A stretch of 64,000 nt of DNA from Nocardia arthritidis (lineage in GTDB: Bacteria > Actinomycetota > Actinomycetes > Mycobacteriales > Mycobacteriaceae), in contig NZ_CP046172.1 in NCBI RefSeq assembly GCF_011801145.1, positions 2,418,001 through 2,482,000 of the forward strand. The letters are read 5' to 3'. A program made the position numbers and the translations under genes. Positions 10,444 through 27,729 of the stretch are shown here, piece after piece. The notes under the pieces are model-generated. The model saw only the letters and a program-made list of their open reading frames with translations, searched no databases and was not told the DNA's origin. How positions within the stretch are numbered: position 1 is the first letter of the stretch; every line of letters starts with the position of its first letter.

Positions 10444-10670
10444 GCACCAACCCGTTCGACGACGAGGACGGCGAGTTCTTCGTCTTGATCAACGCGGAGG
10501 AGCAGTACTCGCTGTGGCCGACGTTCGCCGATGTGCCCGCGGGCTGGCGGGTGGCGCTCGGCCCGGAGACCAGGCAGCGCTGCCTGGAGCACATCGAGCG
10601 GACCTGGACGGATATGCGTCCGAAAAGTCTGCGCGACGCGATGGCCGCGGACGCCGCGGGCACCGCATAA
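10440..10670 (+). CDS. MbtH-like NRPS adenylation chaperone
   Basis: A 76-residue protein starting [20 protein letters not shown] with the family's conserved core (NxExQYSLWP, VPAGW, CLxxIExxWTDMRP). MbtH-like proteins bind NRPS adenylation domains and support their folding or activity. The ATG overlaps the NRPS stop (ATGA), which indicates coupled expression with the synthetase. A gap of about 100 bp containing the first copy of the shared operator motif separates it from the P450 gene. Confidence 0.96.
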
Positions 10671-10679
10671 TGCCGCGGC

Positions 10680-10697
10680 TGTCCTGTCGACGAGACA
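10680..10697. promoter_or_regulatory. Operator motif copy A (upstream of P450 gene)
   Basis: TGTCCTGTCGACGAGACA is a near-palindrome. It lies 72 bp before the ATG at 10770. A possible promoter follows: -35 TTGTGC at 10704, 18 bp, -10 TATCGT at 10728. Related 18-mers occur at 13116, 22643 and 27712. Confidence 0.7.
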
Positions 10698-10769
10698 GCG
10701 TCCTTGTGCCGGGCGAAAATCGCTGAATATCGTTGACTTTGCGGTTCAGCTCTTCGAAGGGGTATTTCG

Positions 10770-11978
10770 ATGACAAACTATCCGATGGTCGATATGGCCG
10801 ATTGCTGGAAAATCCAGCCCGACCATTTCTGGATGCACGGCCAACCGCCGGCCGAGCCGATTCGTTTCGATGAGGCGTTCGGCCGCTGGGACGTCTACGG
10901 ATACGATGATATCGTGCGAATTTTCGGCGATACGGTGAATTTCTCGTCCGATATCAAGCGCCTGTTCAGTTCGCCGGATGTCCAGGAACACAAGGAGGGG
11001 AACCTCATCCAGCTGGACGGCGAGGAACATCGCAAACTGCGTGCGCTGGTCACCAAGGCGTTCACCCCGAAAATCGTGGCCGATCTGGAGCCGCGCATTC
11101 GCGAGGTCACCGTCGAACTGCTCGACGCCGTCGCGGGCCGGGACGAAATCGAGCTGGTCACCGCGCTCGCGTATCCGCTGCCGGTGATCGTGATCGCCGA
11201 ATTGCTCGGCATCCCGGGCTCCGACCGCGACCTTTTCCGTGACTGGGCCACGATCCTGCTGGAAAACACCTATCAGCTCTCGCTGGCCAATCAGGACGAG
11301 GAGCGCCCGCCGGAGGGTGAACGGCTCATCGACAAGGTGCAGCCGATGTTCGCCTACATGCTCGAGCACGCGAACGAGCGCAAGCGGGCGCCCCGCGAGG
11401 ATTTGCTGAGCCAACTCGTCGCGGCCGAGATCGACGGCGAGCGGCTCACCGATACCGAACTGGTGAATTTCGCGGTCATGCTGCTGCTGGTCGGGCATAT
11501 CACCACCACGATGATGCTCGGCAACACCGTGCTGTGCATGGACGCCGAGCCGGACTGGACCGCGCGGGTGCGTACGGACCGCTCGCTGCTGCCGCCATTC
11601 GTCGAGGAGACGATGCGCCTGGTCAGCCCGCTGCCCGCGGTCGCGCGATCCACCCTCGCCGAGGTGGAGATCGCGGGCCGGGTGGTGCCGAAGGATCAGA
11701 TGATCATGCTCGGTCTCGGCGCGGCGAACCGGGACGAGCGCAGATTCGCCGACCCGCACGTCTTCGACCCGACCAGGGATCCGAATCCGCATCTGACCTT
11801 CGGCCGCGGCCTGCACTTCTGCCTCGGCGGCCCGCTGTCCCGGCTGGAGGCGAAGGTCGCGCTGAACGTGCTGCTCGACCGCTACCCGGTGCTGCGCACC
11901 GATCCGGACAACCCGCCGACGTTCATCCCGAATCCCGGTATGACCGGCGTGCAGACCCTGCCGCTGCGCACGGCCTAA
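10770..11978 (+). CDS. Cytochrome P450 (first of four)
   Basis: A 402-residue soluble bacterial P450. Visible are the ExxR motif (EETMR), an I-helix read as LLVGHITTT, and the heme loop FGRGLHFCLG with the Cys ligand. The acidic residue that usually precedes the I-helix Thr is Ile here. It closely resembles the second P450 (13250) through the C-terminal half, so the two are probably paralogues. A likely role is hydroxylation or oxidation of the peptide or of a carrier-bound amino acid; the substrate cannot be read from sequence. Copy A of the operator motif sits upstream and a perfect hairpin downstream. Confidence 0.95.
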   Translation: MTNYPMVDMADCWKIQPDHFWMHGQPPAEPIRFDEAFGRWDVYGYDDIVRIFGDTVNFSSDIKRLFSSPDVQEHKEGNLIQLDGEEHRKLRALVTKAFTPKIVADLEPRIREVTVELLDAVAGRDEIELVTALAYPLPVIVIAELLGIPGSDRDLFRDWATILLENTYQLSLANQDEERPPEGERLIDKVQPMFAYMLEHANERKRAPREDLLSQLVAAEIDGERLTDTELVNFAVMLLLVGHITTTMMLGNTVLCMDAEPDWTARVRTDRSLLPPFVEETMRLVSPLPAVARSTLAEVEIAGRVVPKDQMIMLGLGAANRDERRFADPHVFDPTRDPNPHLTFGRGLHFCLGGPLSRLEAKVALNVLLDRYPVLRTDPDNPPTFIPNPGMTGVQTLPLRTA

Positions 11979-11988
11979 CCCGCTACGA

Positions 11989-12023
11989 AAAGAGCGAGTC
12001 CTCGCCAAGAGGACTCGCTCTTT
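11989..12023. terminator. Bidirectional terminator hairpin
   Basis: Perfect 15-bp stem AAAGAGCGAGTCCTC, loop GCCAA, and its exact complement ending in TTT. It sits between the convergent P450 and dioxygenase genes, with A-rich and T-rich ends serving both strands. Confidence 0.92.
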
Positions 12024-12033
12024 CCGGTGTCGG

Positions 12034-12942
12034 TTACCTGCTGACCGTTCCTTCTTGCAGCCGCTGAACCATCCGGTGCGTGGTTTGCAGCGGCGTTTCC
12101 CCCAGCGCGGGCGCGGTGAATCCGTTGCGCGCGTTGAGCTGCGCGATGCGATCGTTCCATGCGTCGTGCCCACGGAACGGAATGGTCTCCTCGGCGGAAT
12201 AGGCCGGGTAATTGCGATAATTGTTGGTCGCCGTTCCGCGCTTGCCGCGCACCAGGATCGGGTCCAGGTAGAGACCTTCGTTCGCCACCGTCGTCGAGGT
12301 CGCGATATAGCCGATGTCCAGGCCGCAGCGCCGATTGTCCGAGGCATTGGGTTCGGAATAGTGCAGGATATTCGGGTGGTGGATGGATACGTCACCGGGT
12401 GCGAGCTCGATATCGACGATGCCCGCCTTGGCCACCCATTCGTCGACCAACTCCTGGCTGGTCTGCGAATAGAGCATATTGGGGGTGTCGGTGCGCGATT
12501 CCGGCGGAATGATCGGCACCCGGTGGCTGCCCGGCACGATGCGCAGGCACCCGTTGCTCGTATTGGACGGGTCGATGGCCACCCAGACGGTCAGCGCGAC
12601 CAGCGGCCGCAATTTCCAATAGGCGCCGTCCTGATGCCACAGCACCGGCCTGCCGTCCTTAGGTGGTTTGCATACGTAGTGCGCGGTGAAGCAGGCCAGA
12701 TCCGGCCCGAGGAATAATTCGGCGATGTCAACGAGCCGGTCGTCGGTGACCAGGCGCACCCAAAAGGCGTCGTTGCGCATCAGGGGGTGGTGATACTCTT
12801 CCGGCCGCAGCTGCGGATAACGCCGGCCGAGCCATTCGACATGCGCCTGCGCCTCTTTTATCAGCTCGGCGTCCAGGACATTGCGGATTATCGCGAATCC
12901 GTTCTCTTCGTACTCCCGGACGAGGGTATCGGCGTCGAGCAT
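12034..12942 (-). CDS. Phytanoyl-CoA dioxygenase family Fe(II)/2-oxoglutarate oxygenase
   Basis: A 302-residue non-heme iron oxygenase. The HxD part of the iron triad is in WHQDGAYW, and a distal His is probable in the segment SIHHPNILHY. An Arg pair in NRRCGLDIGY is a candidate 2-oxoglutarate anchor. Enzymes of this family hydroxylate, halogenate or epimerise free or carrier-bound intermediates; its place among P450s beside an NRPS points to peptide tailoring. GGGAA precedes the ATG. It is divergent from the second P450 across 307 bp containing operator copy B. Confidence 0.92.
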   Translation of the reverse strand: MLDADTLVREYEENGFAIIRNVLDAELIKEAQAHVEWLGRRYPQLRPEEYHHPLMRNDAFWVRLVTDDRLVDIAELFLGPDLACFTAHYVCKPPKDGRPVLWHQDGAYWKLRPLVALTVWVAIDPSNTSNGCLRIVPGSHRVPIIPPESRTDTPNMLYSQTSQELVDEWVAKAGIVDIELAPGDVSIHHPNILHYSEPNASDNRRCGLDIGYIATSTTVANEGLYLDPILVRGKRGTATNNYRNYPAYSAEETIPFRGHDAWNDRIAQLNARNGFTAPALGETPLQTTHRMVQRLQEGTVSR

Positions 12943-13249
12943 TCTGAATTCCCTTCGATTATTCGGCTAACATTCTTGTACGCCGATCTGATCCATGGGC
13001 TCGCCGGTTGGCCTTCCGGGAAAATGCGAGCATCGTCGGCCGGGGACGAACCGGCTGCGCCATCGAAATTTTACCGTCGTGGGAGGGGCGGTAAGCGTGC
13101 TTGCGGGCATCCCGATGTCCTGGCGACGGGACATTTGTGAAAGGCCGTTCATATCGACACCGGCGCGGCGGATCTGAAACAATCAGTCGACATTCCGCCA
13201 CCTCGGAAACATCATGCGGGAAAATAACCAGCGAATTACGGGAGAGGCC
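12943..13249. other. Divergent intergenic region between dioxygenase and second P450
   Basis: No gene is seen in these 307 bp. The region contains operator copy B and presumably the divergent promoters. I cannot assign -10 and -35 boxes with confidence. Confidence 0.6.
13116..13133. promoter_or_regulatory. Operator motif copy B
   Basis: TGTCCTGGCGACGGGACA; 116 bp before the P450 start at 13250 and 173 bp before the divergent dioxygenase start. It differs from copy A at two positions. Confidence 0.7.
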
Positions 13250-14440
13250 ATGTCCGCACTGGCTGAGCGATGGAAATTGGATGAACAGCGCTTCTTCTGG
13301 ATTTACGGTGAGCAGGGGCGGGCGCCGAAACGGGTCGAGCTGGACGAGCGCACCGGCATCTGGAATGTGCACGGGCACGCCAACGCGCTGCAGGTGCTGA
13401 ACAATCCGGCGATCTTCTCGTCGGGGACCGGCCGCCTCATCCCGGAGCAGAGCGAATTCGACGAGGGCGCCATCACCCAGCTGGATCCGCCGCGGCATAC
13501 CAAGCTGCGCAAGCTGGTCACCGCCGCGTTCACCCCGCGGGCGATCGCCGAACTGGAACCGCGCGTGCACGCGATCGTCGACACGCTGCTGTCGAAGGTC
13601 GAAGGTGAGCGCGGATTCGATCTGATCACCGATTTCGCCTACCCGCTGCCGATCACGGTGATCACCGAACTGCTCGGGGTGCCCGCGGACGATCATGTGC
13701 TGATCCAGGGCTGGGTGGACCGAATGCTCAGCGGGACAACGGAACTGTCCCTCGTCGACCACGAGAACGACAGCGAGATCGTCGATGTGCTCGCGCAGGC
13801 CAAGCACATCACCGATTATCTGCGCGGGCTGGTGAAAGAGCGGGTGGCCAACCCGCGCGACGACATGCTCACCAAACTCGTCCAGGCCGAGGTGGACGGT
13901 GAGCGGCTGACCGAACCCGAGATCGTCAACTTCGCGAACGCGCTGCTGGTGGCGGGGCATGTCACCACGACACTGCTGATCGGCAGCACCGTGCTGTGTC
14001 TCGACGCATATCCGGAAGCAGACCGAGCGGTCCGCTCCGATCGGAGCCTGATGCCGACGCTGCTGGAGGAGACGCTGCGCTACTTCCCGCCGATCACCAT
14101 GATGGCGCGGGTCACCAATGCCGAGGTCGAGCTCGGCGGCGTCACCATCGGACCCGACCAGTTCGTCGCGGTCTGGTCGCCGACAGCCAACCGCGACGAC
14201 GAGGTCTTCGCCGACCCCTTCGCCTTCGACCCGGCGCGCGAACCGAATCCGCACCTGTCCTTCGGCCGCGGCGCGCACTTCTGCATCGGCGCCGCGCTCG
14301 CCAGGCGCGAGGGATATATCGCGATGAACGCGCTGTTCGATCGCTTTCCGAGGCTGCGCGTCGACCCGGACGGCACGCCGACGTTCATGACGAGCCCGAA
14401 CCTCAACGGCCTGACCAAACTGCCCGTCGTCGTCGACTGA
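13250..14440 (+). CDS. Cytochrome P450 (second of four)
   Basis: A 396-residue P450. ATG 13250 was chosen because GGAG lies 5 nt upstream; an in-frame ATG at 13214 would add 12 residues. The ExxR motif is EETLR, the I-helix VAGHVTTT (Val where Asp/Glu is usual) and the heme loop FGRGAHFCIG. Strong similarity to the first P450 around the TVLCxDA..P segment and the C-terminus suggests duplication. It is followed at 14 nt by a peptidase gene with its own GGAGG, so the two are likely cotranscribed, with operator copy B upstream. Confidence 0.95.
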   Translation: MSALAERWKLDEQRFFWIYGEQGRAPKRVELDERTGIWNVHGHANALQVLNNPAIFSSGTGRLIPEQSEFDEGAITQLDPPRHTKLRKLVTAAFTPRAIAELEPRVHAIVDTLLSKVEGERGFDLITDFAYPLPITVITELLGVPADDHVLIQGWVDRMLSGTTELSLVDHENDSEIVDVLAQAKHITDYLRGLVKERVANPRDDMLTKLVQAEVDGERLTEPEIVNFANALLVAGHVTTTLLIGSTVLCLDAYPEADRAVRSDRSLMPTLLEETLRYFPPITMMARVTNAEVELGGVTIGPDQFVAVWSPTANRDDEVFADPFAFDPAREPNPHLSFGRGAHFCIGAALARREGYIAMNALFDRFPRLRVDPDGTPTFMTSPNLNGLTKLPVVVD

Positions 14441-14454
14441 CCGGAGGAATCAGG

Positions 14455-16719
14455 ATGGAACTCGACGCGAGCGCCTACCGGACGGCGGAGCAGCTGCTGC
14501 GGCACAATCGGGCTGGGCTGGTGCTCGGCGGTAAGGTGCGGCCGCGCTGGACCGCCGACGGCGGCTTCTGGTACACGGTGGACACCGAGCGAGGACGGCA
14601 GTTCATCCTCGTCGACCCGGTCGAGGGTGTCCGGCGGCCCGCATTCGACCACGAGCGGCTCGCGGCGGCGCTCGCGGCCGCGTCCGGGCAGTCGGTCGAT
14701 GCCGCGGCGCTGCCGTTCGCCGCATTCGAAACAGCCGGGGACGCAATCGAATTCGATGCGTTCGGCACGCACTGGCGATGCGCGCTCGGCGAATACACCT
14801 GCGCACCGGCCGAGGCCCGCCCGGCGGTCAACCTGCTCGAAGTCGCCTCGCCCGACGGCAAAATCGCGGTCTTCCGCGCCGGATACGACCTGCGCGCCCG
14901 CTCGCTCACCGGCGGCGCGGACTGGGCGCTCACCGAGGACGGCACCCGCGAACGCGACTACGGTTCCAACCCGGACTATTTCATGTACTCGACGCTGCTG
15001 GCCTCGCTCGGGGTGCCGCATCTGCCGCCGTCGGTCGCGTGGTCGCCCGATTCGACCCGGGTGCTCACCCATCGGACCGATCAGCGCGGCGTCCGGGAAA
15101 CCCATCTGACGCGGGTCATGCCCGCGGGCGGCGGCGCACCCGAACTGCTCACCCAGCGCTTCGCGATCCCCGGTGACGAACATCAGCCGATGGCCGAACT
15201 CGTCGTGCTGGATATCGCCGCTGGCACGGTGATTCCGGCTCTCGCCGAACCGATCCCGATGTCGATGAGTTCACCGATCGCCCGGCAGTGGGCGTGGTGG
15301 TCGGACGACGGTTCGGCCGTGTACTACCTGAATACGACGCGGTACGCGAAGGAGCTGAGCCTGCACCGGCTCGACCCGGTATCCGGCGAGGTGCGCACCA
15401 TCCTGTCCGAGTCGGCGACGACCTGGATCGAACCGGCGCAGCGATTCGCGCAGGCGCCCATCGTCAAGGTGCTCGGGTCGGAGGTGCTGTGGTTCTCCCA
15501 GCGCGACGGCTGGGGGCACCTGTACCGCTACGGCATCGAGGACGGTGCGCTGCGCAACCAGGTGACCTCCGGCGAGTGGGTGGTGCAGCAGATACTGCAC
15601 GTCGACGAGCACGTCGTCTACTTCCTCGCGTCGGGCCTGATCGCGGCGGACCCCTATCGCAGGACGGTGTGCCGGGTCGGCCTCGACGGCTCGGATTTCA
15701 CCAGGCTGACCGATGACGACCTCGACCATGCGGTGACGGTCTCGCCGGACGGGTCGTACTTCATCGACTCGGCATCCACCACCGACATCGCGCCGGTGCA
15801 CACGGTGCGCGGCTGGGACGGCGGCGTGCGCGTCGAACTGGAACGGGCCGATATCTCCCGGCTCGTGGCGACCGGATGGACCCCGCCGCAGCGTTTTCGG
15901 GCGACCGCCGCCGACGGCTCCACCGACATTGACGGAATGCTTTACCTCCCACACGGATTCGATCCGGACAAGCGCTACCCGGTGCTCGACCATCCATACG
16001 GATTCCCGATCGCGAACCGCGTCGCCCCGTGCTTCGATCCCGGCTATTACGGTACCGACGCGGAAGTGCTTGCGGCGCTTGGCTTTGCGGTGATCGCGGT
16101 GGACGGGCGCGGTTCGCCGGGCCGGAGCAAGGCGTTCCACGACGCCGCGTACGGTCGGTTGGCCGACGCGGCCGGGCTCGCGGATCATGTTGCGGCGCTG
16201 CGTGAATTGGCCGCGACCCGGCCGTGGCTCGACCTGGACCGGGTCGGGGTGTTCGGCACATCCTCCGGTGGTTTCGCCGCCGCGCGGGCGCTGCTCGACT
16301 TCCCGGATGTCTTCAAGGCGGGCGTCGCCGAGACCGGCATGCACGATATGCGCTACGTCGACCTCGGTATCGCCGAGATGTACAACGGCCCGCTCGGCGA
16401 TGCGTATACGGCGGCGGCCAATGCGGAATTCGCGGACCGGCTCGTCGGCAAACTCCTGCTGGTGCACGGCGGTCTGGACGACAGCGTCTCACCCGATCTG
16501 ACGCTGCGGCTGGCCGAGGCGCTGGTGCGGGCGGACCGCGATTTCGAACTGCTCATCGTGCCCGGCGCCGACCATTTCGGCACCGGCTATCAGCACTACC
16601 TCAACCGGCGCCGCTGGGACTTCCTGGTCCGCAACGTGATGGGCGCCGAACCGCCGGCCGGGTATCGGCTCACCCCGATCCCGATGGATATGGACGCCGT
16701 CGCCGAACTGTTCGGCTGA
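14455..16719 (+). CDS. S9 family serine peptidase (dipeptidyl-peptidase IV / prolyl-oligopeptidase type)
   Basis: A 754-residue protein with an N-terminal beta-propeller-like domain and a C-terminal alpha/beta-hydrolase catalytic domain. The triad is visible as Ser in GTSSGG, Asp in HGGLDDSV and His in GADHFG. No signal peptide is evident, so it should act in the cytoplasm. GGAGG sits 8 nt before the ATG. Within an NRPS locus such an enzyme could trim a precursor peptide, hydrolyse a shunt product, or protect the producer; which one cannot be decided here. Flanked closely by P450 genes on the same strand, it looks like part of that operon. Confidence 0.9.
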   Translation: MELDASAYRTAEQLLRHNRAGLVLGGKVRPRWTADGGFWYTVDTERGRQFILVDPVEGVRRPAFDHERLAAALAAASGQSVDAAALPFAAFETAGDAIEFDAFGTHWRCALGEYTCAPAEARPAVNLLEVASPDGKIAVFRAGYDLRARSLTGGADWALTEDGTRERDYGSNPDYFMYSTLLASLGVPHLPPSVAWSPDSTRVLTHRTDQRGVRETHLTRVMPAGGGAPELLTQRFAIPGDEHQPMAELVVLDIAAGTVIPALAEPIPMSMSSPIARQWAWWSDDGSAVYYLNTTRYAKELSLHRLDPVSGEVRTILSESATTWIEPAQRFAQAPIVKVLGSEVLWFSQRDGWGHLYRYGIEDGALRNQVTSGEWVVQQILHVDEHVVYFLASGLIAADPYRRTVCRVGLDGSDFTRLTDDDLDHAVTVSPDGSYFIDSASTTDIAPVHTVRGWDGGVRVELERADISRLVATGWTPPQRFRATAADGSTDIDGMLYLPHGFDPDKRYPVLDHPYGFPIANRVAPCFDPGYYGTDAEVLAALGFAVIAVDGRGSPGRSKAFHDAAYGRLADAAGLADHVAALRELAATRPWLDLDRVGVFGTSSGGFAAARALLDFPDVFKAGVAETGMHDMRYVDLGIAEMYNGPLGDAYTAAANAEFADRLVGKLLLVHGGLDDSVSPDLTLRLAEALVRADRDFELLIVPGADHFGTGYQHYLNRRRWDFLVRNVMGAEPPAGYRLTPIPMDMDAVAELFG

Positions 16720-16752
16720 CCCCTGATCGCCTTCAGATAAGGAACGAACGAG

Positions 16753-17952
16753 ATGACCGATTCCCTGTCCGTGCCGGTGCAGCTGCCGATCATGCGCGCT
16801 GCCGACCGACCGTTCGATCCGCCGCCGGAGCTCGCCGAACTGCGCGAGCGGACGCCGCTGCGCAGGCTCGCGATGCCGGGCGGATACGGCGGGTGGTTGG
16901 TGACCAGTCACGCCCTGGTTCGCGCGGTGCTCGGGGATCAGCGCTTCAGCGTCCGGCACGAGCTCATGCACTCACCATTTCCGGGCACGGAGGGCGTCGA
17001 GGTGCCCGCGGCCCCGCCGGGGCATTTCAGCGCCTTCGATCCGCCGGAGCACACGCGTTTCCGGAAACTGTTGACGGGCAAGTTCACCGTCCGCCGGATG
17101 GCCCAGCTCACCGCCCGGCTGGAGCAGATCACCGCCGAATGTCTCGGCGCGATGGACGGTATGGAGCCGCCGGTGGATCTGGTGCAGGCGTTCGCCCGCC
17201 CGATTCCCACCGCGATGATCTGCGAGCTGCTCGGCGTGCCCGATCAGGAACAGGAGCTGTTCCACCGGCTTTCCCGGCTGAACGAACTGGACGTGACCCC
17301 GGAGGAGACCGTCGAGCTCACCACCGGGCTGGACAAATACATGCACGAGCTGGTGCTGGCCAAGCGCGCCACGCCGACCGACGATCTGCTCAGCGATGTC
17401 GCGGCGAGCGATCTCACCGAGGAGGAGCTCACCGGCGTCGGGACGCTGCTGCTCGGCACCGGCCTCGACACCACCGCCAATATGCTCGCGTTCGGCGTCT
17501 TCGCGCTGCTCGCCCATCCCGATCAGCTCGCCCTGCTGCGCCGCGGCGACGGCGATTCCGACGCGGTGGTCGAGGAACTGTTGCGCTACTTGAGCATTCA
17601 GTGGTTCTCCGCACGGGTGGCGCTGGACGACGTCGAGCTGGACGGGCAGCGGATCGAGCCGGGCGACATGGTGGTGCTCTCGCTGCACGCGGCCAACCGT
17701 GACCCGGAACGCTTCCCGGATCCCGACGCGCTGGACATCCAGCGGCGCGCCGTCGGACACCTGGCCTTCGGGCACGGCATCCACCAGTGCCTCGGCCAGC
17801 AACTGGCCCGCGTCGAAATGCGCGTCGCGTATCCGGCTCTGCTGCAACGGTTTCCGACCTTGCGCCTCGCGGTCGCGCCCGAGGAGGTGCCGCTGCGCAT
17901 CGGCGCCATGTACGGCGTGCACCGGCTGCCGGTCGCATGGGACCGGGCGTGA
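16753..17952 (+). CDS. Cytochrome P450 (third of four)
   Basis: A 399-residue P450 of more canonical type than its three neighbours: the I-helix LLGTGLDTTAN keeps the Asp-Thr pair, with ExxR as EELLR and heme loop FGHGIHQCLG. It may come from a different P450 lineage than the other three and may accept a different substrate. The start follows the peptidase stop by 33 nt, and the next gene begins 10 nt after its stop, so this is one transcription unit from 13250 to 19201. Confidence 0.94.
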   Translation: MTDSLSVPVQLPIMRAADRPFDPPPELAELRERTPLRRLAMPGGYGGWLVTSHALVRAVLGDQRFSVRHELMHSPFPGTEGVEVPAAPPGHFSAFDPPEHTRFRKLLTGKFTVRRMAQLTARLEQITAECLGAMDGMEPPVDLVQAFARPIPTAMICELLGVPDQEQELFHRLSRLNELDVTPEETVELTTGLDKYMHELVLAKRATPTDDLLSDVAASDLTEEELTGVGTLLLGTGLDTTANMLAFGVFALLAHPDQLALLRRGDGDSDAVVEELLRYLSIQWFSARVALDDVELDGQRIEPGDMVVLSLHAANRDPERFPDPDALDIQRRAVGHLAFGHGIHQCLGQQLARVEMRVAYPALLQRFPTLRLAVAPEEVPLRIGAMYGVHRLPVAWDRA

Positions 17953-17962
17953 TCGAGCGCAA

Positions 17963-19201
17963 ATGCTTGGCAGAGAAGCGAAATCGGCGATAGAGCGGCT
18001 CGCCGCCGCCATCGTCTCGGTGCGGCCGCTCGTCGCCGGGGTCGGTGCGCCGGTGCGCGTCGTGCCGAATGCCGGGCACGATTGGCCGCCCGGTCACCGG
18101 CATGCGGTGCGCCGCCTGCTCGATCGGATCGCCCGGCGCGCCGGAGTCGAGGGTTTGGTGCTGGCCGAGGATGTGGCGTTCGACGATCTCCAGGTATTCG
18201 AACGGGTGGTGAGCGAGCGGCTCGCACTCGGTGACTGCGTGCGCGCCGCCGGGATCGTTCCCGCGGATCTGCTCGGTGAGGTGGAGCGGATCGCCGCGGC
18301 GGCGGTGGCGGCCGGTTTCGACACGTTCGCTCATCAGGAGACCATCGCCTCGAATGATGGTGTGCCGCTACAGGTTTACTCCGCGGGGGTGGGGGAGGAG
18401 ACTGTCGTTCTCGTCCCCGCATGCGGTATGCCCGCCGCGCTCACGGAGTCATGGGTGCGCTTTCTTTCCCGCGACCGTCGTGTGCTGACCTGGGAGAGTC
18501 GCGGATTATTCGGTGCGGCTGAGCCTTTAGGTGACTACGCCGTGGACAGCCGGGCGCAGGCCACCGACCTGTTCACGGTCATGGCGCACTATGGTGCGCC
18601 GAGCGCGCACGTCGTCGGATTCTGCGGCGGGGCGGTCATCGCACTGCTGGCCGCCGCATTGCGGCCCAAGGCAATTCGCTCGCTCAGCCTGTGGCACGGC
18701 GCATACGGATTCGCCGACGGCGGCCCGATGACCAAGCACGAGAAGGGAATGCTCGAACTGACCACCACCGCCGCGGCCGACCGCGCCGCCGCGACGGCCG
18801 TGCACACCGCCTTCTGCGAGGTGATGCTCACCAACACGCCCACCGAGGTGGCCCACCTCGTGCTGTACCCATACGCGAGCCCGGAACTGCTCTACCGGTA
18901 CTGCCGCCTGAATTTCGCATTGACCAGCACCGACGTCGGCCGGTACCTCGCCGACGTGCCGCAGCCCACGCTCGTCGTCACCAGCCGCGACGACCACACC
19001 ACCCATCCCGCCGCTTCCGAACGAGTAGCGGCGGCCCTGCCGAACGCCCACCTCTGGCTGACCGACCACGGCGACCACATCTCGGCGTTCACCGCGGGCG
19101 ACCCCCTACTCCGCACGGCCGCCGACTTCATGACCCGAGCCGCCGAATCGCCTACGCCACAGGACGATTCCCCACGCATCGACGTGTTCACCCGGCAGTA
19201 G
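17963..19201 (+). CDS. Alpha/beta hydrolase with Cys nucleophile and extra N-terminal domain
   Basis: A 412-residue protein. Residues about 130-395 form an alpha/beta-hydrolase fold. The nucleophile elbow reads GFCGG, giving Cys221 where Ser is normal. Candidate acid and His lie in TSRDDHTTH and DHGDHISAF. About 125 N-terminal residues precede the fold and I do not recognise them. Possible roles are a type II thioesterase, a lactone- or ester-cleaving enzyme, or an acyltransferase acting on the peptide. The ATG at 17963 is the first usable start after the P450 stop; a GTG overlapping that stop runs quickly into a TAG. The 3' end is already part of a 115-bp repeat array. Confidence 0.85.
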   Translation: MLGREAKSAIERLAAAIVSVRPLVAGVGAPVRVVPNAGHDWPPGHRHAVRRLLDRIARRAGVEGLVLAEDVAFDDLQVFERVVSERLALGDCVRAAGIVPADLLGEVERIAAAAVAAGFDTFAHQETIASNDGVPLQVYSAGVGEETVVLVPACGMPAALTESWVRFLSRDRRVLTWESRGLFGAAEPLGDYAVDSRAQATDLFTVMAHYGAPSAHVVGFCGGAVIALLAAALRPKAIRSLSLWHGAYGFADGGPMTKHEKGMLELTTTAAADRAAATAVHTAFCEVMLTNTPTEVAHLVLYPYASPELLYRYCRLNFALTSTDVGRYLADVPQPTLVVTSRDDHTTHPAASERVAAALPNAHLWLTDHGDHISAFTAGDPLLRTAADFMTRAAESPTPQDDSPRIDVFTRQ

Positions 19202-20997: not shown

Positions 20998-21896
20998 CAA
21001 CGCCCGGCCAGCGCGGCGAGACCGTCGGCCACCGCCGCATCGCCCGCCGCGGACGGATGGAATGCGACACCCTGGTTGACCTTCGGATCGAGGAATCCGT
21101 TCACCCACGGTTCGGCCGTGCACAGCCCGTGCCCGGCGGTCACCGCGCGCGCATCGAAGAATTCGATGCCGAGCAACTGGGCCGCTTTGCGCTGGGCCTG
21201 GTCGAGCCGATCCAGATATACGGTCAGCGCCGCACCGCGCGGCTGCACGAACGGCATTCCGAAGAAGTCGAAACACAGCGTCTGCTGGCCGGGCGGAAAG
21301 AGTTCGGGATAGCCGACAAGGACGATCCGCGCGCTCGGCGCGTAGTACTGGATGTATTCGACGACGGTCCGGATCCGCTCGGCATACAGCTCACCGGATA
21401 CCGCGTGGTAGTCGGTTATCCGGCCCTGCTGGGCCGCGTCCAGCCCGCACCCGTCGACCAGGTTGAACAGGCACGTCCCCAGTGCCGACCACACCGTCAT
21501 ATCGTTGGTGCCCCACTTGTCGTTCAGGCCGAACTGCAGGGCCACCAGCTTCGTCCGCGGGCCGAACGCGGCCGCCTGACTCGCCGACCTCGCCTGCACC
21601 AGCAGCGTGGTGCTGTGCCCGCTGTCGATCGTCGCGCCGGTGCACGACTCGTCCAGGAAATCCGGGCTGCCCGCCAGGCCGAGCCGGCCGCTGAGCTGGT
21701 TGGGCCACGAAGTCTGGCCGCGCACACAGGTATTCGTGAAACTCCAGTCCCATCCGTTCGACGTGTACGAATCGCCGAGGACGACGACCTCCCGGCCCGC
21801 GGCGGGGTCGGCCGCCGCGGTGTTCGCCGCGCTCATCGCCACGGCGACCGCTGATGCCAACGTCACCAGCAGGCGGCCTGCTCTCGTGTGCGTCAC
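20997..21896 (-). CDS. Secreted SGNH/GDSL-type esterase
   Basis: A 299-residue protein starting at GTG 21896 (VTHTRAGRLL), with a signal peptide ending near AANTAAADP. Block I GDSYTSNG carries the catalytic Ser, GLND the Asn, and DPKVNQGVAFHPS the Asp-His pair. It should be exported and hydrolyse or transfer acyl esters on the outer face. Upstream frame stays open without a recognisable domain, so the start was set at the signal peptide. It is the middle gene of a three-gene minus-strand unit: lipoprotein, esterase, acyltransferase. Confidence 0.9.
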   Translation of the reverse strand: MTHTRAGRLLVTLASAVAVAMSAANTAAADPAAGREVVVLGDSYTSNGWDWSFTNTCVRGQTSWPNQLSGRLGLAGSPDFLDESCTGATIDSGHSTTLLVQARSASQAAAFGPRTKLVALQFGLNDKWGTNDMTVWSALGTCLFNLVDGCGLDAAQQGRITDYHAVSGELYAERIRTVVEYIQYYAPSARIVLVGYPELFPPGQQTLCFDFFGMPFVQPRGAALTVYLDRLDQAQRKAAQLLGIEFFDARAVTAGHGLCTAEPWVNGFLDPKVNQGVAFHPSAAGDAAVADGLAALAGR

Positions 21897-21910
21897 TGTC
21901 GTCCTGTCTG

Positions 21911-22462
21911 TCAGTACCCGGCGTGCGGATCGAATCCCGGATCCGGCAGTGTCGGTGCGGGTTTCGCGGTCGGGGCAGGGGGTTCGGGCTTCGGCGGCGC
22001 GGGCGGCTTGGCCGGTGCGGGCTGAACCGGCGGCTCGGGTGGCACCTGTGGCGGCGGGGGTGGGGCCGCGGGCGGAGGAGCCTCGGGCGAGGGTGCGACG
22101 GGTGAGGGTGCGACGGGTGGGGGTGGGGCGGGCTGCTCGCTCGATGGCGGTGCGGCCTGCTGGGGCGTGGATGATGTCGCGACCGGCGCCACGCTCGTCG
22201 TCGTGGGGTGCGCGGGCCCGCTGTCGGAGCCGCATCCCGTCACCGCGGCCAGCACGGCGATGCCGCCGACCAGGGCGGCAACGCATCGGACCACCCCGCC
22301 ATCCCGCGGCTCGGCGAATGCCCCGGCGGCACTGTGCCGAATCGAACCGGGGCGTCGATTCGAATCGATCCGATTCACACTGTGTCGATACATATCGGGC
22401 CGATATGCATCCGGATGGACACCTGCGAGAAAGCGAGTGAAACGCGAAGCGATATTCGACAC
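21911..22462 (-). CDS. Proline-rich putative lipoprotein
   Basis: A 183-residue protein from GTG 22462, which has a good AAGGGAG 7 nt upstream. A hydrophobic stretch ends in a lipobox-like AAVTGC, after which about 100 residues are Pro/Ala-rich with repeated APSPVAPSPEAPPP-like segments. With this start about 60 basic residues precede the hydrophobic core, which is long for a lipoprotein signal. An internal GTG (VVRCVAALVGG, about 22297) would give a conventional one. Function unknown; Pro-rich cell-wall-spanning lipoproteins are common in mycolata. It lies 14 bp before the esterase. Confidence 0.65.
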   Translation of the reverse strand: MSNIASRFTRFLAGVHPDAYRPDMYRHSVNRIDSNRRPGSIRHSAAGAFAEPRDGGVVRCVAALVGGIAVLAAVTGCGSDSGPAHPTTTSVAPVATSSTPQQAAPPSSEQPAPPPPVAPSPVAPSPEAPPPAAPPPPPQVPPEPPVQPAPAKPPAPPKPEPPAPTAKPAPTLPDPGFDPHAGY

Positions 22463-23077
22463 CTGTGCTCCCTTTCCGGGTGGAACGGACGCGACCCGCC
22501 GGATCGCTATCATCGTGCGATTCGGTCGGCCGGATTGCAATACTTGTCCATATCCGACGCGGTCGTCGCCCGCTCGCCGCCGGGCCGTCGAATATTCGGA
22601 AATTCCGGTGAATGGCGTCCGGTGATCGCGTCTGTGCCGATTTGTCCTGGCAACAGGACGAGCCGCGTCGGCTCGTAAGGGGCGGCCGGAGCGATCCGGC
22701 GTTGGACACCGCGACCCGCCGCATGCCGCATCTCGGGCGAGAACGCCGGTGGTGTCGCGAAACTCGCGCACTCGGCGGTCGATTCGATTCGGATGGACGC
22801 ACGCTGCCGTACCGGCCGGACGACGTGCTCGGGACGCATTGGAAATCATCGGGGGCAATTGATCTATATACGTACCCGCGCCCGTTCCGGCAATTTCTTG
22901 GTTCACCGTAACGCCCGGTTGGTTCCGTATATCGGCGACCGCGAGCCGGACTCGGCCACATCTATATTATCGAGCCACCATGGGTGGGGTCGAATAATAC
23001 ATTCGCTGATACGAACACCTGCCGAACGATCCAGAGTAAATGGTGCGCGAATAATATTTCTCGTCGAGGAGGACCGC
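22463..23077. other. 615-bp divergent intergenic region
   Basis: No coding sequence is convincing on either strand. Operator copy D is at 22643-22660. Roughly the last 200 bp before the P450 are clearly more AT-rich than the surroundings (TATATA, TATATTAT, AATAATATTT), which suits promoter DNA, but I do not assign a specific promoter. Confidence 0.6.
22643..22660. promoter_or_regulatory. Operator motif copy D (most diverged)
   Basis: TGTCCTGGCAACAGGACG keeps the GTCCTG/CAGGAC arms as a perfect 6-4-6 inverted repeat but loses the final A of the consensus. It lies 180 bp from the lipoprotein start and 417 bp from the P450 start, so it could serve either. Confidence 0.55.
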
Positions 23078-24304
23078 ATGTCCATGACCGCCATAAATTT
23101 GATGGATCCCGAATTCACCACGAATCCGGCCGCCGCATATGGACGGCTGCGCGAGGAGGCGCCGGTCGTCCCGGTGAATTTTCCCGGAGTGGCCGCACCG
23201 GTCTGGTTGATCACGCGCTACGAGGATGTCAAGGCGGCGCTGACCGATCCGCGGTTCGTCGTCGACCGCAACAATGTGCCGGGACTGAACGAACCGAGTG
23301 CCAGGGATCAAATAATGGAGGCGATGGGCGTTCCGGAGGATCTCCGGCCGCACCTGACCACCATGGTGAATATGGATGGCCGGGCGCACTCCCGGCTGCG
23401 CACCCTGGTGAGTCCCGCCTTCACCAGCCGCCGAATGGACGCACTGCGCTCGCGCGTCGAGATCGTCGCCGCGCAATTGGCCGATGACCTGCGGCGCAAG
23501 CCGGAGCCGGATCTGCTCGCCGACTTCTCGGCGCACCTGTCCGGCACCATCATCTGCGAGCTGGTCGGCGTCGACGAGGCCGACCGGGCGGAGGTGCGCG
23601 GCTGGATTCAGGGCTTCGCGGGCGACGATCAAACCCGCATCCTGGAGCGCGCCCGACTCCTCGTGAACTACACGAAGGATCTCATCGCGCGGCGGCGCGC
23701 CGAACCCGGCGACGACACGATTTCGAAACTGCTCGCCGCCGAGGCGGATGGCGACCAGTTGACCGATACCGAGATCGTCACGATGTTCACCATGCTCATC
23801 CAGACCGGGTATGTGACCACAGCGCATTTCATCCCGAATGCCGTGGTGACTCTGCTCGATCACCCCGATCAACTGGATCGGCTGCGCGCGGATCCCGAAT
23901 TGCTGCCGCACGCCGTCGACGAGCTGCTGCGGGTCGCGGGCCCGATCACGGTCGGCACCATGATGTACGCGACCGAGGACCTGAATTTGGCGGGCACGCC
24001 CATCCGGCGCGGCGACACCTTGGCGGGCTGCCTGGTCTCCGCCAATCACGACCCCCGGGTATTCGACGATCCGGACCGTTTCGATATCGCGAGGATTCCC
24101 GCGTCCGGCCGTAACCACCTGGCCTTCTACTACGGCTCGCACTTCTGCCTCGGCGCGCGGCTGGCGGAGGTGGAGAGCGAGGTGGCGCTGCGGGAGCTGC
24201 TGCTGGCCCGCGACGGGTTATCCCTGGCTATCGAGCGGAACCAGCTCGAACACCATCCGAATCCGATCGGAAACCTGCTGGTGCGGCTGCCCGTGCACTT
24301 CTGA
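23078..24304 (+). CDS. Cytochrome P450 (fourth of four)
   Basis: A 408-residue P450. The start ATG 23078 has GAGGAGGA 4 nt upstream. The ExxR motif is DELLR. The heme loop is FYYGSHFCLG: it fits FxxGxxxCxG but has Tyr where Gly is usual at position 2. The I-helix LIQTGYVTTAH lacks both the usual Ala-Gly start and the acid. These departures suggest an unusual distal pocket, possibly binding a substrate that itself helps proton delivery. It stands alone between a divergent region and the HicB-like promoter. Confidence 0.93.
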   Translation: MSMTAINLMDPEFTTNPAAAYGRLREEAPVVPVNFPGVAAPVWLITRYEDVKAALTDPRFVVDRNNVPGLNEPSARDQIMEAMGVPEDLRPHLTTMVNMDGRAHSRLRTLVSPAFTSRRMDALRSRVEIVAAQLADDLRRKPEPDLLADFSAHLSGTIICELVGVDEADRAEVRGWIQGFAGDDQTRILERARLLVNYTKDLIARRRAEPGDDTISKLLAAEADGDQLTDTEIVTMFTMLIQTGYVTTAHFIPNAVVTLLDHPDQLDRLRADPELLPHAVDELLRVAGPITVGTMMYATEDLNLAGTPIRRGDTLAGCLVSANHDPRVFDDPDRFDIARIPASGRNHLAFYYGSHFCLGARLAEVESEVALRELLLARDGLSLAIERNQLEHHPNPIGNLLVRLPVHF

Positions 24305-24321
24305 ACCCGGCCTCTGGCGTC

Positions 24322-24374
24322 ATCATGGCACCATGATTCTTGATATGGCGCCATGATGGCGTTACGCTTGTGCC
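24322..24374 (+). promoter_or_regulatory. Promoter with two palindromes; predicted leaderless transcript
   Basis: Palindrome 1 is ATCATGGCACCATGAT (24322-24337), a perfect 7-2-7 repeat. The -35 TTGATA (24340-24345) and -10 TACGCT (24363-24368) are separated by exactly 17 bp. Palindrome 2, ATGGCGCCAT (24345-24354), lies in the spacer. The expected start of transcription falls on or next to the ATG at 24375, leaving no leader or ribosome binding site. The layout suits repression by the ribbon-helix-helix protein encoded next. Confidence 0.72.
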
Positions 24375-24899
24375 ATGGATCTAACGCCCTATGTCGACAG
24401 CCTGCAGCAAGAGCTACTGGCGGCGGCCGATTCCGGTGAGGAGACCGCGCTGGCGCAGCGCCTGTCCGCCGCCGTCGCGGCCGCCACCCGGTTGACCATG
24501 CTCGATGTGCTGTCCGCCGCCGCGGACGAGATCACCAGGGATCTGCTCCCCGGTTCGGTCGAGCTCCGGCTGCGCGGGCGTAACCCATATTTCGTGGTCG
24601 CCTCCGGCCAAACCGCTGCGGAGGACGAGGACGACGAGGTGTGGGCGTCCGCGGCGGGCGCCGGGCGGGATATCCCCGCGTCGGCGCTGAACGGCAAGGA
24701 TGGCGCCGTCTCGCGGATCAACTTCCGCCCCCCGGAACAGCTCAAGCAGCGCATCGAGGCGGCTGCGAGCGAGGCGGGGCTTTCGGTCAACGCCTGGCTG
24801 GTCCAGGCGGTCGGTGTGGCGCTCGCCGGTGATCAGCGGTCCCGGCGGGGGCGCCGGGACGGCAACCGTTCCGGGCGCTTCACCGGCTGGGTCGGCTGA
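24375..24899 (+). CDS. HicB-like / ribbon-helix-helix protein
   Basis: A 174-residue acidic protein with a basic tail. Its C-terminal part (LKQRIEAAASEAGLSVNAWLVQAVGVAL) resembles the Arc/HicB ribbon-helix-helix fold, preceded by a strand-like FRPPEQ. No HicA toxin gene is adjacent, so a toxin-antitoxin role is unlikely. In actinomycetes this type often precedes a DUF4097 gene and a drug-exporter ABC pair, exactly as here, and probably represses that operon through the palindromes in its promoter. The start is ATG 24375 at the predicted transcription start. Confidence 0.85.
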   Translation: MDLTPYVDSLQQELLAAADSGEETALAQRLSAAVAAATRLTMLDVLSAAADEITRDLLPGSVELRLRGRNPYFVVASGQTAAEDEDDEVWASAAGAGRDIPASALNGKDGAVSRINFRPPEQLKQRIEAAASEAGLSVNAWLVQAVGVALAGDQRSRRGRRDGNRSGRFTGWVG

Positions 24900-24943
24900 G
24901 CCGGCCCGACCGCCGGAACACGCACGAGAGAAGGGGATTCACC

Positions 24944-25813
24944 ATGCCCACATTCGTTACGCCGGAACCCATCGCGGTATCGGTCACGGTCACCAGCGCC
25001 GAGGTTCGGCTGGTCGCGAGCGAGCGGGCCGACACCGTGGTATCGGTCGAACCGGTCGACAAGGCGAGTAAATCCGATGTGGATACCGCCGAGCGGACGA
25101 AGGTCGAGTTCGCGACCGGTCAGCTGACGGTCACCACGCCGTCGCCCGGCATGCTGCGGGTGAGCAAGCGCAGTTCGGTCCGCGTCACCATCGAACTGCC
25201 CGCCGATTCCACCCTGCTCGCGAAGCTGATGCACGCGCGGGTGCGCACCGAGGGCAGGCTCGGCGACTGCGACGTGCGGCTGACATCGGGACAGGCGCAG
25301 CTCGATTGCGTCGGCGCGCTGCGCGCGAGCCTGATGCACGACGATATCGCGGTCGAGCACGTCACCGGCTCCGCCGAGATCGACAGCCTGTCCGGTTCGG
25401 CGCGCATCGGCGAGGTCGACGGCATCCTCCGGTTCAAGGGCACCAAGGGCGGGATCTGGATCGGCGACGCCTCCGACGATCTCGACATCCGTTCGGTGAA
25501 CGGCGATATCGAGATCGACCGCGCCGACAGCAATGTCACCGCGGTGACGGTCGATGGCGCCGTTCGGGTCGGCCGGTTGACGCACGGGCACGCCGATCTG
25601 ATGAACAGTTCGGCGAATATCGAGATCGGCATCAGCAATGGCACCGCGGCCTGGGTGGAGGCCGACAGCAAGAAGGGTGCGGTGCGCAACAACCTTCCGG
25701 TGCAACAGAATCCGGACGAGTTCGACAACACGGTCAAGGTGCGCGCCCGAACTCGCTCGGGCGACATCATCATCCGGCGCGCCGCCGATGAAAGCGGCTC
25801 CTCGGCCGATTGA
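24944..25813 (+). CDS. DUF4097 family beta-repeat protein
   Basis: A 289-residue protein predicted as a right-handed beta structure: repeated short strands such as GSARIGEVDGILRF and GDIEIDRADSNVTAV occur through residues 130-280. No signal peptide or membrane segment. The family is common in operons with HicB-like regulators and DrrAB exporters; its biochemical role is not known. GAGAGAAGGGG lies just before the ATG. Spacing of 44 bp to the regulator and 73 bp to the ATPase suggests one transcript. Confidence 0.87.
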   Translation: MPTFVTPEPIAVSVTVTSAEVRLVASERADTVVSVEPVDKASKSDVDTAERTKVEFATGQLTVTTPSPGMLRVSKRSSVRVTIELPADSTLLAKLMHARVRTEGRLGDCDVRLTSGQAQLDCVGALRASLMHDDIAVEHVTGSAEIDSLSGSARIGEVDGILRFKGTKGGIWIGDASDDLDIRSVNGDIEIDRADSNVTAVTVDGAVRVGRLTHGHADLMNSSANIEIGISNGTAAWVEADSKKGAVRNNLPVQQNPDEFDNTVKVRARTRSGDIIIRRAADESGSSAD

Positions 25814-25886
25814 AAAGCTTCTGGCACAAAGGTTTTCGGTGGTCGCGGCAGGCGAACGCCAAGAGAAGGTAAGGAAGGAGGGGGAG

Positions 25887-26849
25887 GTGGCTGATATCTC
25901 TCCGATGGCGATAATGGCGATCGGTCTACGCAAATCGTATGGCGAGCACGTGGTGCTCGACGGGATCGACCTGAGTGTCGCTCCGGGAACAGTCTTTTCG
26001 CTGCTCGGGCCGAACGGCTCCGGTAAGACGACGACGGTCAAAATCCTCACCACCCTGATCCCGGCAGACGGCGGGGATATGTGGGTGGGCGGGCACAGCG
26101 TCACCAAGGAGGGTGCGGCGGTCCGCGGCGCGATCGGCGTCACCGGGCAGTTCTCCGCGGTCGACCGCTGGCTGACCGGCGAGGAAAATCTGCTGCTCAT
26201 GGGCGATCTGAACCATCTGTCCCGCGGCGACGCGCGCAGGCGGGCCGCCGAACTGCTCGAGCGCTTCGATCTGGTGGACGCGGCCGCGCGCGTCACATCG
26301 ACCTACTCGGGCGGTATGAAACGCCGCCTGGATCTGGCGATGAGCCTGATGGGCAGGCCGAGCATCATCTTCCTCGACGAGCCGACGACGGGCCTCGATC
26401 CGCGCAGCAGGCGCACGATGTGGCAGATCATTCGGGAGCTGGTCGCCGACGGCACCACGATCTTCCTGACGACGCAGTACCTGGAGGAGGCCGATCAACT
26501 GGCCGACCATGTCGCGGTGCTCGACCAGGGCAAGCTGGTCGCCGAGGGCACGCCGGCCGAACTCAAACAGCGGGTGCCGGGCGGATACATCAGCTTGCAG
26601 TTCCCGGATGTCGAGGCGCTCGATCGCGGCGCTCGCGCGCTCGGCACGCAGGAGCGCGATCGCGACACCCTCACCGCACAGGTCACCAGCGACGGCAGCG
26701 CCGCCGCGGTCAAGGCCGCACTCGACCGGCTGTCCGATGACGCCATCCCGGTCGACAAGGTGTCGGTGCACACGCCGGATCTCGACGACGTCTTCTTCGC
26801 CCTGACCGGTCACTCCCAGCGCGAGGACGAGAAAGTGAGCATCCCATGA
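25887..26849 (+). CDS. ABC transporter ATP-binding protein, DrrA type
   Basis: A 320-residue ATPase. Walker A is GPNGSGKTT, the signature is YSGGMKRRLDLAMSLMG, and Walker B is IIFLDEPTTGLD. A C-terminal extension of about 90 residues is typical of DrrA-like drug exporters. GTG 25887 was chosen because GGAGG lies 5 nt upstream and the ABC fold starts shortly after. It energises efflux of the locus product through the permease, whose ATG overlaps its stop (ATGA). Confidence 0.94.
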   Translation: MADISPMAIMAIGLRKSYGEHVVLDGIDLSVAPGTVFSLLGPNGSGKTTTVKILTTLIPADGGDMWVGGHSVTKEGAAVRGAIGVTGQFSAVDRWLTGEENLLLMGDLNHLSRGDARRRAAELLERFDLVDAAARVTSTYSGGMKRRLDLAMSLMGRPSIIFLDEPTTGLDPRSRRTMWQIIRELVADGTTIFLTTQYLEEADQLADHVAVLDQGKLVAEGTPAELKQRVPGGYISLQFPDVEALDRGARALGTQERDRDTLTAQVTSDGSAAAVKAALDRLSDDAIPVDKVSVHTPDLDDVFFALTGHSQREDEKVSIP

Positions 26850-27619
26850 CATCCGTTGCCAGCGCGGTCGCCGATTCGACGACGATGGTGCGCCGGGAGC
26901 TGCGGCACACCATGCGCAATCCGGGCCAGCTCGCCCTCGCGATGCTGATGCCGCTGATCATGCTGCTGCTGCTCAATTTCGCATTCGGCGGCGCGCTCGA
27001 CACCAAGGGCATCAAATACATCAACTACGTGGTGCCGGGCATCGTCATGCTCGGTGCGGCCTACTCCGCGCAGGCGACGGCCCTGGCGGTGAACGCGGAT
27101 ATGACCGAGGGCATCATCGACCGGTTCCGGACCATGGCGATCGCCCGGCCCTCGGTCCTGATCGGCCATGTCATCGGCGCCACCGCTCGGTCGCTGATCG
27201 GCATCGCGATCGTCGTGCTCGTCGCGCTCGCGATCGGTTTCCGCCCGAGCGCGAACGTCGTCGAATGGCTCGGCGTGATCGGGCTGATCGCCCTGACGCT
27301 GTTCTCATTCGCTTGGCTCGCAACGGCTTTCGGCCTGATCGCGAAGAATCCGGCCGGTGCGTCCACCATGACGCTGCCGCTTTCGCTGCTGCCCTTCCTC
27401 GGCGGCGCCTTCGTGCCGACCGACACCATGCCCGGCTGGCTGCGGGTGTTCGCCGCCAACCAGCCGCTGACCCAGATCATCGAGGCGCTGCGCAGCCTGC
27501 TGCTCGGCGGCCCGATCGGCGATCACGCCTGGCTGGCGATCGCCTGGTGCCTCGGTATCGCGGTGGTCGGCTTCGTCTGGGCCACCTCGGCCTTCTCCCG
27601 CCGGACCGCCGTGCAGTAA
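26846..27619 (+). CDS. ABC transporter permease, DrrB / ABC-2 type
   Basis: A 257-residue protein with six likely membrane segments (for example LAMLMPLIMLLLLNFAFGG and LGVIGLIALTLFSFAWLATA) and the ABC-2 signature region around FLGGAFVPTDTMPGWLRVFA. It forms the membrane half of the exporter and probably gives the producer self-resistance or exports the peptide. It is translationally coupled to the ATPase and followed by a strong terminator. Confidence 0.93.
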   Translation: MTSVASAVADSTTMVRRELRHTMRNPGQLALAMLMPLIMLLLLNFAFGGALDTKGIKYINYVVPGIVMLGAAYSAQATALAVNADMTEGIIDRFRTMAIARPSVLIGHVIGATARSLIGIAIVVLVALAIGFRPSANVVEWLGVIGLIALTLFSFAWLATAFGLIAKNPAGASTMTLPLSLLPFLGGAFVPTDTMPGWLRVFAANQPLTQIIEALRSLLLGGPIGDHAWLAIAWCLGIAVVGFVWATSAFSRRTAVQ

Positions 27620-27652
27620 TCCTTCGACCGATAGCTGAACAAGAGTTACCGC

Positions 27653-27690
27653 TTTCCGGTGCCGCCATTATCTGGCGGCACCGGAAATTT
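27653..27690 (+). terminator. Terminator after the exporter operon
   Basis: Perfect 14-bp stem (TTTCCGGTGCCGCC and complement) with a 7-nt loop ATTATCT, followed by TTTAT. It separates the exporter operon from the A-PCP genes. Confidence 0.92.
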
Positions 27691-27711
27691 ATGTATAAGG
27701 AATTCGAGAAT

Positions 27712-27729
27712 TGTCCTGCTGACAAGACA
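27712..27729. promoter_or_regulatory. Operator motif copy C
   Basis: TGTCCTGCTGACAAGACA; 117 bp before the carrier-protein start, almost the same spacing as copy B has to its P450 gene (116 bp). The core also reads as TTGTC-N5-GACAA. Confidence 0.7.

Follow-up and report, generated by a model that had tools for sequence, protein, structure and literature searches.

We analysed a window of 64,000 nucleotides (positions 2418001-2482000) on the single 10,014,015-bp chromosome of Nocardia arthritidis, in which an 18-bp near-palindrome recurs between the genes of a nonribosomal peptide synthetase (NRPS) cluster. With a probability of roughly 0.9, this 18-mer is the predicted operator of a transcription regulator of the LmbU family, and we infer that the Nocardia protein binds it. 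The 18-mer looks like the operator of the whole regulator family rather than one that is private to a single pathway. Four copies are located in the window:

10680..10697, plus strand: operator site TGTCCTGTCGACGAGACA, intergenic between the MbtH gene and a cytochrome P450 gene, 72 bp before the P450 start at 10770
13116..13133, plus strand: operator site TGTCCTGGCGACGGGACA, 116 bp before the P450 start at 13250
22643..22660, plus strand: operator site TGTCCTGGCAACAGGACG, in a divergent lipobox-protein/P450 region, 417 bp before the called P450 start at 23078
27712..27729, plus strand: operator site TGTCCTGCTGACAAGACA, 117 bp before the carrier protein start at 27847

All four were listed in an earlier sequence-only reading of the window, are present where it placed them, and fit the pattern TGTCCTGNYRACRRGACR with no mismatch. 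The 18-mers are genuine, and their number greatly exceeds chance expectation: with up to two mismatches to TGTCCTGNYRACRRGACR, the window contains eight matches (the four sites, each on both strands) as compared to 0.31 expected, and none of 100 window shuffles reached eight. That reading also gave distances of 116 and 117 bp for the second and third copies, of which the first is correct for site 13116, while the second belongs to the fourth copy, upstream of the ATG at 27847. At the third site, the lipobox-like protein is encoded on the opposite strand. The absence of copies from the polyketide half was borne out, since none was found there with the pattern, with the matrix built from the Nocardia sites or with the matrix of the family.

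Nine sites and two LmbU genes in Nocardia arthritidis

A genome scan, as proposed in the sequence-only reading, was run as a pattern search and recovered six exact copies of TGTCCTGNNNACNNGACN in 10.01 Mb, all inside 71 kb (2374772-2445728), namely the four window sites and two additional sites at 2374772 and 2400666. Places with one mismatch numbered 18, of which three were nearby (2376307, 2397248 and 2487689) and the other 15 were scattered over the chromosome. The nine strong sites (2374772, 2376307, 2397248, 2400666, 2428680, 2431116, 2440643, 2445712 and 2487689) cover 113 kb, and eight of them are inside a polyketide synthase (PKS)-NRPS cluster that starts upstream of the window. In a scan of the 180 kb around the cluster with a symmetric matrix, the nine sites scored 17.0-25.8 and the next best match 13.1. 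A matrix built from non-Nocardia sites gave the same nine sites scores of 18.9-30.4, with the next at 6.5, a result that is not fully independent because those sites had been chosen with the Nocardia matrix. The relaxed palindrome NGTCCNGNYRNCNGGACN had 21 matches in the genome as compared to six for the control, and six of the 21 fall at the nine sites; among the stray matches, the one at 8635671 belongs to a longer hairpin, and the one at 5857344 is flanked by genes for an ArsR-type protein and an M23 peptidase.

Two genes for LmbU proteins are located outside the window, close to these sites:

Chromosome 2397380-2398045, minus strand: LmbU-family regulator g041, 20 kb upstream of the window, between two sites
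Chromosome 2488380-2488991 (L034:8380-8991), plus strand: second LmbU paralog, 673 bp after the ninth site, 224.2 bits to NF038070

The g041 protein scored 225.2 bits against NCBIfam NF038070, for which the curated cut-off is 125, and matched no Pfam family. It is 48% identical to LmbU from Streptomyces lincolnensis with a nearly unchanged recognition helix, and has 33 residues ahead of the family profile, as compared to the N-terminal auto-inhibitory domain of LmbU at amino acids (aa) 1-57. LmbU has been described as a homodimer with a central helix-turn-helix at aa 80-102, in which Arg101 is essential for binding (PMC6510168). This arginine is conserved in both Nocardia proteins, as the VARR of LmbU aligns with VSRR in g041 and with VARR in the paralog. 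About two thirds of the known LmbU members are encoded within biosynthetic clusters (PMC7014725), and so is g041, beside FMN_bind_2 and aminotransferase genes and between PKS and NRPS genes. About 1.2 kb between g041 and the aminotransferase gene g042 (2398046-2399221) contains no called gene, in a dense cluster. The ninth site, 2487689, is found 21 bp after a SARP-like gene. The second LmbU gene, downstream of both, has a TTA codon at position 164, of which g041 has none, and this may give bldA-type control or cross-talk.

The palindrome at other LmbU loci

In S. lincolnensis, the published LmbU motif is CGCCGGCG, extended to TCGCCGGCGA from the lmbA promoter, and the reported targets are the lmbA and lmbW promoters, bound through CGCCGGCG (PMC6510168, PMC10763038). 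We identified YGTCTCGCCGGCGAGACR in 11 of the 392 genomes of the genus to which G424 belongs; an LmbU gene was present in the DNA examined for six of these (G743, G606, G720, G625, G611 and, 27 kb away, G753), and the remaining five were examined as 3-kb loci. Genome G753 is S. lincolnensis, with a full-length Lmr(A) (1077.4 bits), an adjoining GGT gene, an LmbU gene (246.6 bits) and 176 TCGCCGGCGA sites, the count also printed for this species (PMC10763038). Its 10.3 Mb contain two exact matches to YGTCYCGCCGGCGRGACR and none with one mismatch. The two sites, TGTCTCGCCGGCGAGACA and TGTCTCGCCGGCGGGACA, both have the frame TGTC-N10-GACA. The site at 292102 precedes the GGT gene, lmbA, by 166 bp (to the called start), and the site at 315165 is between a mycothiol-isomerase-like gene (minus strand, 246 bp away) and a gene for a methyltransferase (plus strand, 53 bp away), which from the lmb gene order we take to be lmbV and lmbW. 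The two exact 18-mers thus coincide with the promoters that have been reported as LmbU-bound (lmbA and lmbV/lmbW), and the published CGCCGGCG is therefore the centre of an 18-bp palindrome, TGTC-N10-GACA.

It appears that CGCCGGCG represents the middle part only of the LmbU docking site. The short motif was found 25 times in the 80 kb around the lmb sites, and 19.5% of its 437 copies in the 78 loci examined below were intergenic, as compared to 20.5% of the DNA. The lmbA and lmbW operators resemble the Nocardia sites in regulator family and in the 18-bp frame, which the nine sites keep with arm variants. They differ in number and centre: the nine Nocardia sites have centres that include GTCGAC, GTTGAC and GGCGAC, whereas the two in S. 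lincolnensis have GCCGGC. For the family as a whole, the operator reads approximately YGTCCYG-TCGA-CRGGACR, and in a second form, with GCCGGC in the middle, the published motif is the centre.

We also searched 78 loci with LmbU relatives from other actinomycetes, a sample in which close relatives are favoured because it was limited to the best 80 of 390 relatives. At scores above 15, the nine-site Nocardia matrix had 164 matches in 1.41 Mb, distributed over 73 of the 78 loci, while six column-permuted symmetric matrices had 9, 4, 6, 1, 5 and 2 matches in the same DNA. At least two matches were present in 53 loci and at least three in 26. Of the 164 matches, 158 were intergenic (20.5% of the DNA is intergenic) and 150 face a start codon at a median distance of 151 bp. 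The centres were GTCGAC in 61 matches, GTCGGC or GCCGAC in 43 and GCCGGC in 12, with GTCGAC the commonest among close relatives of the Nocardia LmbU. Only spacer 8 was enriched, with YGTCC-N-GGACR found 165 times as compared to 14-48 for the other spacers from 4 to 14, and the flanks of the 18-mer contain at most 0.14 bit per position. Tandem pairs of operators exactly 24 bp apart were observed in L074, L081, L117, L119, L120 and L139 (e.g., L139:2768 and 2792), and 27 bp apart in L104, which suggests that two dimers bind cooperatively in this subgroup of loci. In the Streptomyces loci L107, L139 and L074, lmbU is followed by a convergent gene for 200-214 aa and then by the operator, at about +1470 to +1490 from the lmbU match, before a gene for 438-450 aa; no NRPS-sized gene was found in 20 kb.

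In 13 whole genomes chosen from the 78 loci (123 Mb), YGTCCYGNYRNCRGGACR had 71 sites as compared to five for the reversed pattern, and 57 of the 71 were at most 75 kb from an LmbU gene (2.0 expected). In Kutzneria sp. 744, seven of the eight sites in 11.6 Mb are within 73 kb beside the single LmbU gene, among NRPS, P450 and PhyH genes, in a region that we presume to be the kutzneride cluster; one of these overlaps a called gene at its end. The LmbU homolog in this strain is Orf10 (PMC3878487). Together with NovE, HmtD, HrmB and Lun18, it belongs to the LmbU proteins of antibiotic clusters, mainly for nonribosomal peptides, and no operator for these five is reported in the excerpts of the papers that describe them (PMC7014725, PMC9866976, PMC3878487).

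Samples at the level of the class and the genus were also analysed. Of 14 class genomes with an LmbU match, 13 were over the cut-off, including the N. arthritidis genome, and the 12 others contributed 14 stretches with 15 LmbU genes. The best match to the family matrix scored at least 14.9 in 13 of the 14 stretches. Among 150 Nocardia genomes, an LmbU match was found in nine (five of the main type), TGTCCYGNYRNCRGGACA in six and both in four.

Contrary observations and alternative readings

Several observations weigh against LmbU as the regulator that recognizes the 18-mer. In S. lincolnensis, the looser pattern YGTCYYGNYRNCRRGACR had seven matches (none for the reversed control), of which five are outside the cluster; in each of these, one or both of the outermost positions are C or G, and none has T and A at both ends. 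Binding in electrophoretic mobility shift assays to targets outside the lmb cluster, chosen with TCGCCGGCGA, has been reported (PMC10763038), as has binding of truncated LmbU to the lmbU promoter (PMC6510168). In the whole-genome scan, neither those targets nor the lmbU promoter contained a CGCCGGCG-centred 18-mer, whether exact or with one mismatch, and the TGTC and GACA arms may therefore not be absolutely required in vitro. Three new targets in PMC10763038 were missing from the RNA-seq data of another group, which used another strain, and its discussion notes that perfect 10-mer sites bind LmbU unequally and that the flanks may matter. LmbU is reported to activate all 28 lmb genes (PMC7014725), whereas two sites were found.

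In N. arthritidis, none of the nine sites contains the literal CGCCGGCG, which is present in ten of the 164 family sites. Site 2397248 is located between converging genes, 10 bp past the FMN_bind_2 gene and 114 bp from the stop codon of g041 on the minus strand. The paralog is 49.5% identical to g041, and the sites cannot be attributed to one of the two. No strong site was found within 40 kb on either side of the gene for the closest relative, the LmbU protein of N. panacis (69%).

Further contrary points come from the surveys. Five of the 78 LmbU loci had no match in the retrieved DNA, the counts over these loci are not independent because many of them are related, and no fixed -10/-35 spacing followed the sites in 61 non-redundant cases facing a single gene (six from N. 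arthritidis). In 296 class genomes, the strict pattern TGTCCYGTCGACRGGACA matched only the N. arthritidis genome, though 14 carry an LmbU match. Intergenic matches of at least 12 were recovered from only 11 of the 14 class stretches and are weak or ambiguous; five (L156:17967, L162:11557, L163:2394, L164:8764 and L165:7186) are at junctions of convergent or closely spaced tandem genes and could equally well be terminators, and three other class matches (L157, L165 and L166) are inside the lmbU frame. Three of the four double-positive Nocardia genomes are also problematic, with the match inside the lmbU frame in G066, on another contig in G131 and 18 kb away within a longer stem in G136; only N. 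arthritidis itself is therefore clean, and the genus test adds little.

The matches within the lmbU reading frame are at C1:4965553 in G066 (perfect), L157:10133, L165:10389 (weaker) and L166:10385. The one in G066 overlies codons of the conserved arginine stretch past the helix-turn-helix and may represent a codon coincidence or an internal autoregulatory site.

We consider it very unlikely that another regulator that travels with the LmbU genes, such as the SARP-like g098, binds the 18-mer and that LmbU is a mere neighbour. The SARP-like gene and site 2487689 are separated by 21 bp, and LmbU was the only regulator covered by the 78-locus survey. However, it is the LmbU protein that has been reported to bind the lmbA and lmbW promoters (PMC6510168, PMC10763038), the only places in that genome with a CGCCGGCG-centred 18-mer, and a two-fold palindrome with one favoured spacer fits a homodimer.

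Even less probable is that the palindromes function as RNA hairpins (terminators or attenuators) rather than as protein operators. The sites are inverted repeats, 22 of the 164 family matches are within longer stems, as is the single exact match in N. transvalensis (G136), and some GCTGGC-centred matches in the class sample are at convergent or tight tandem junctions. In contrast, the nine Nocardia and two lmb sites are not in longer stems (at most two further contiguous pairs), seven of the nine precede genes, and the sequence information stops at 18 bp. When the 22 longer-stem matches were removed as possible terminators, 142 matches remained in 71 loci, of which 136 were intergenic and 131 face a start codon, at a median distance of 151 bp.

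The least credible binder is the NarL-type response regulator at 34039 that the sequence-only reading had named as a candidate: its gene is located in the window at a distance of 6 kb from site 27712, beside a histidine kinase gene, but nearness is the sole point in its favour, no strong site is found near its own operon, and the 18-mer tracks LmbU genes in other genomes and marks the two promoters reported as LmbU-bound in S. lincolnensis. The likely regulator is encoded by the LmbU-family gene g041.

Predicted regulon and its meaning

Genes in the window were called by a script and named via Pfam. Those in the NRPS half are:

1..1535, plus strand: 3' end of the NRPS gene g043 (whole gene at chromosome 2400879-2419535), whose upstream region holds site 2400666
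1537..10443, plus strand: NRPS with domains C, A, PP-binding, methyltransferase and TE
10440..10670, plus strand: MbtH-like protein
10770..11978, plus strand: cytochrome P450, probable target of site 10680
13250..14440, plus strand: cytochrome P450, probable target of site 13116, at the head of a gene run
14455-16719, 16753-17952 and 17963-19201: S9-type peptidase, P450 and hydrolase of that run
23078..24304, plus strand: cytochrome P450, possible target of site 22643
After this P450 and up to 27619: g056, LiaG-like g057 and DrrA/DrrB-type ABC genes
27847..28182, plus strand: free-standing carrier protein, probable target of site 27712; an AMP-ligase gene follows at 28290-29858

The proposal in the sequence-only reading of a pathway-specific operator for the NRPS tailoring genes is well supported by nine intergenic sites in 113 kb, located before most biosynthetic units, but the regulon exceeds the tailoring genes. 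As predicted here, it also takes in an ornithine/lysine N-monooxygenase gene, a P450-PKS unit and the NRPS gene g043, all of which start upstream of the window. The sites are 134 bp before the N-monooxygenase gene, 156 bp before a P450 gene that leads to a 4921-aa protein with a ketosynthase in its first 786 residues, and 195 bp before g043 (site 2400666), which encodes 6218 aa with NRPS domains in the first 2000 residues, the part that was scanned. FMN_bind_2 is, we assume, the family of piperazate synthase. The gene set (N-monooxygenase, FMN_bind_2, PKS, NRPS, MbtH, DrrA/DrrB and LiaG-like genes) is similar in composition to the polyoxypeptin and lunaemycin clusters (piperazate cyclodepsipeptide; PMC3943440, PMC9866976).

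The gene g056 (24375-24899), inside the exporter gene run, encodes 174 aa with a HicB-like C-terminal helix (a weak Pfam match); it was considered as a further LmbU and rejected, as it had no NCBIfam match. Between the NRPS and polyketide halves, at 29905-32504 on the minus strand, are EspG-family and WXG100/PPE-like genes, which are parts of type VII secretion.

In the proposed mechanism, g041 or its paralog would bind the nine sites as a homodimer, with one ParB-like helix-turn-helix of the dimer on each TGTC half of the palindrome. By analogy with the activation of the lmb genes by LmbU, it would jointly switch on the N-monooxygenase, P450-PKS, NRPS, P450, exporter and carrier units. The predicted structure of LmbU weakly resembles the DNA-binding domains of ParB and Noc: the best Foldseek match to ParB-type folds had a weak E-value of 0.019, at a Z that helical models often reach by chance, and the best match of the LmbU profile to PDB sequences had an E-value of 0.083. 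No N-terminal CTP-binding ParB domain was found in the g041 protein, in the Pfam search or in the 33 residues ahead of the LmbU profile. The ParB, Spo0J and Noc systems with their parS and NBS sites differ from the Nocardia operator, which has 18 bp with a different core. It is improbable that LmbU proteins are DNA-binding domains of the ParB type that have become cluster activators, which would nucleate on parS-like 18-bp sites and bridge an array of 70-110 kb so that distant promoters of a cluster are brought together and switched on jointly rather than singly.

Regulation by LmbU is already known, but our searches of open-licence papers revealed no description of the 18-bp operator, of the form with GTCGAC or of its use by Nocardia. 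None of six strings of the GTCGAC type (four 18-mers, a further one containing N, and a 16-mer) was present in the papers searched, and for five CGCCGGCG-type strings, among the matches listed, LmbU was the subject by title only in PMC10763038. LmbU regulators are present in many NRPS-type clusters, where the published 8-mer is common and not intergenically enriched, and the 18-bp operator represents the precise code. It offers a reason for the unequal affinity of LmbU for perfect 10-mers described in PMC10763038. It also predicts which promoters are touched and marks cluster borders, in N. arthritidis by stopping short of the polyketide half, and it directs attention to clusters that might be activated by a single regulator.

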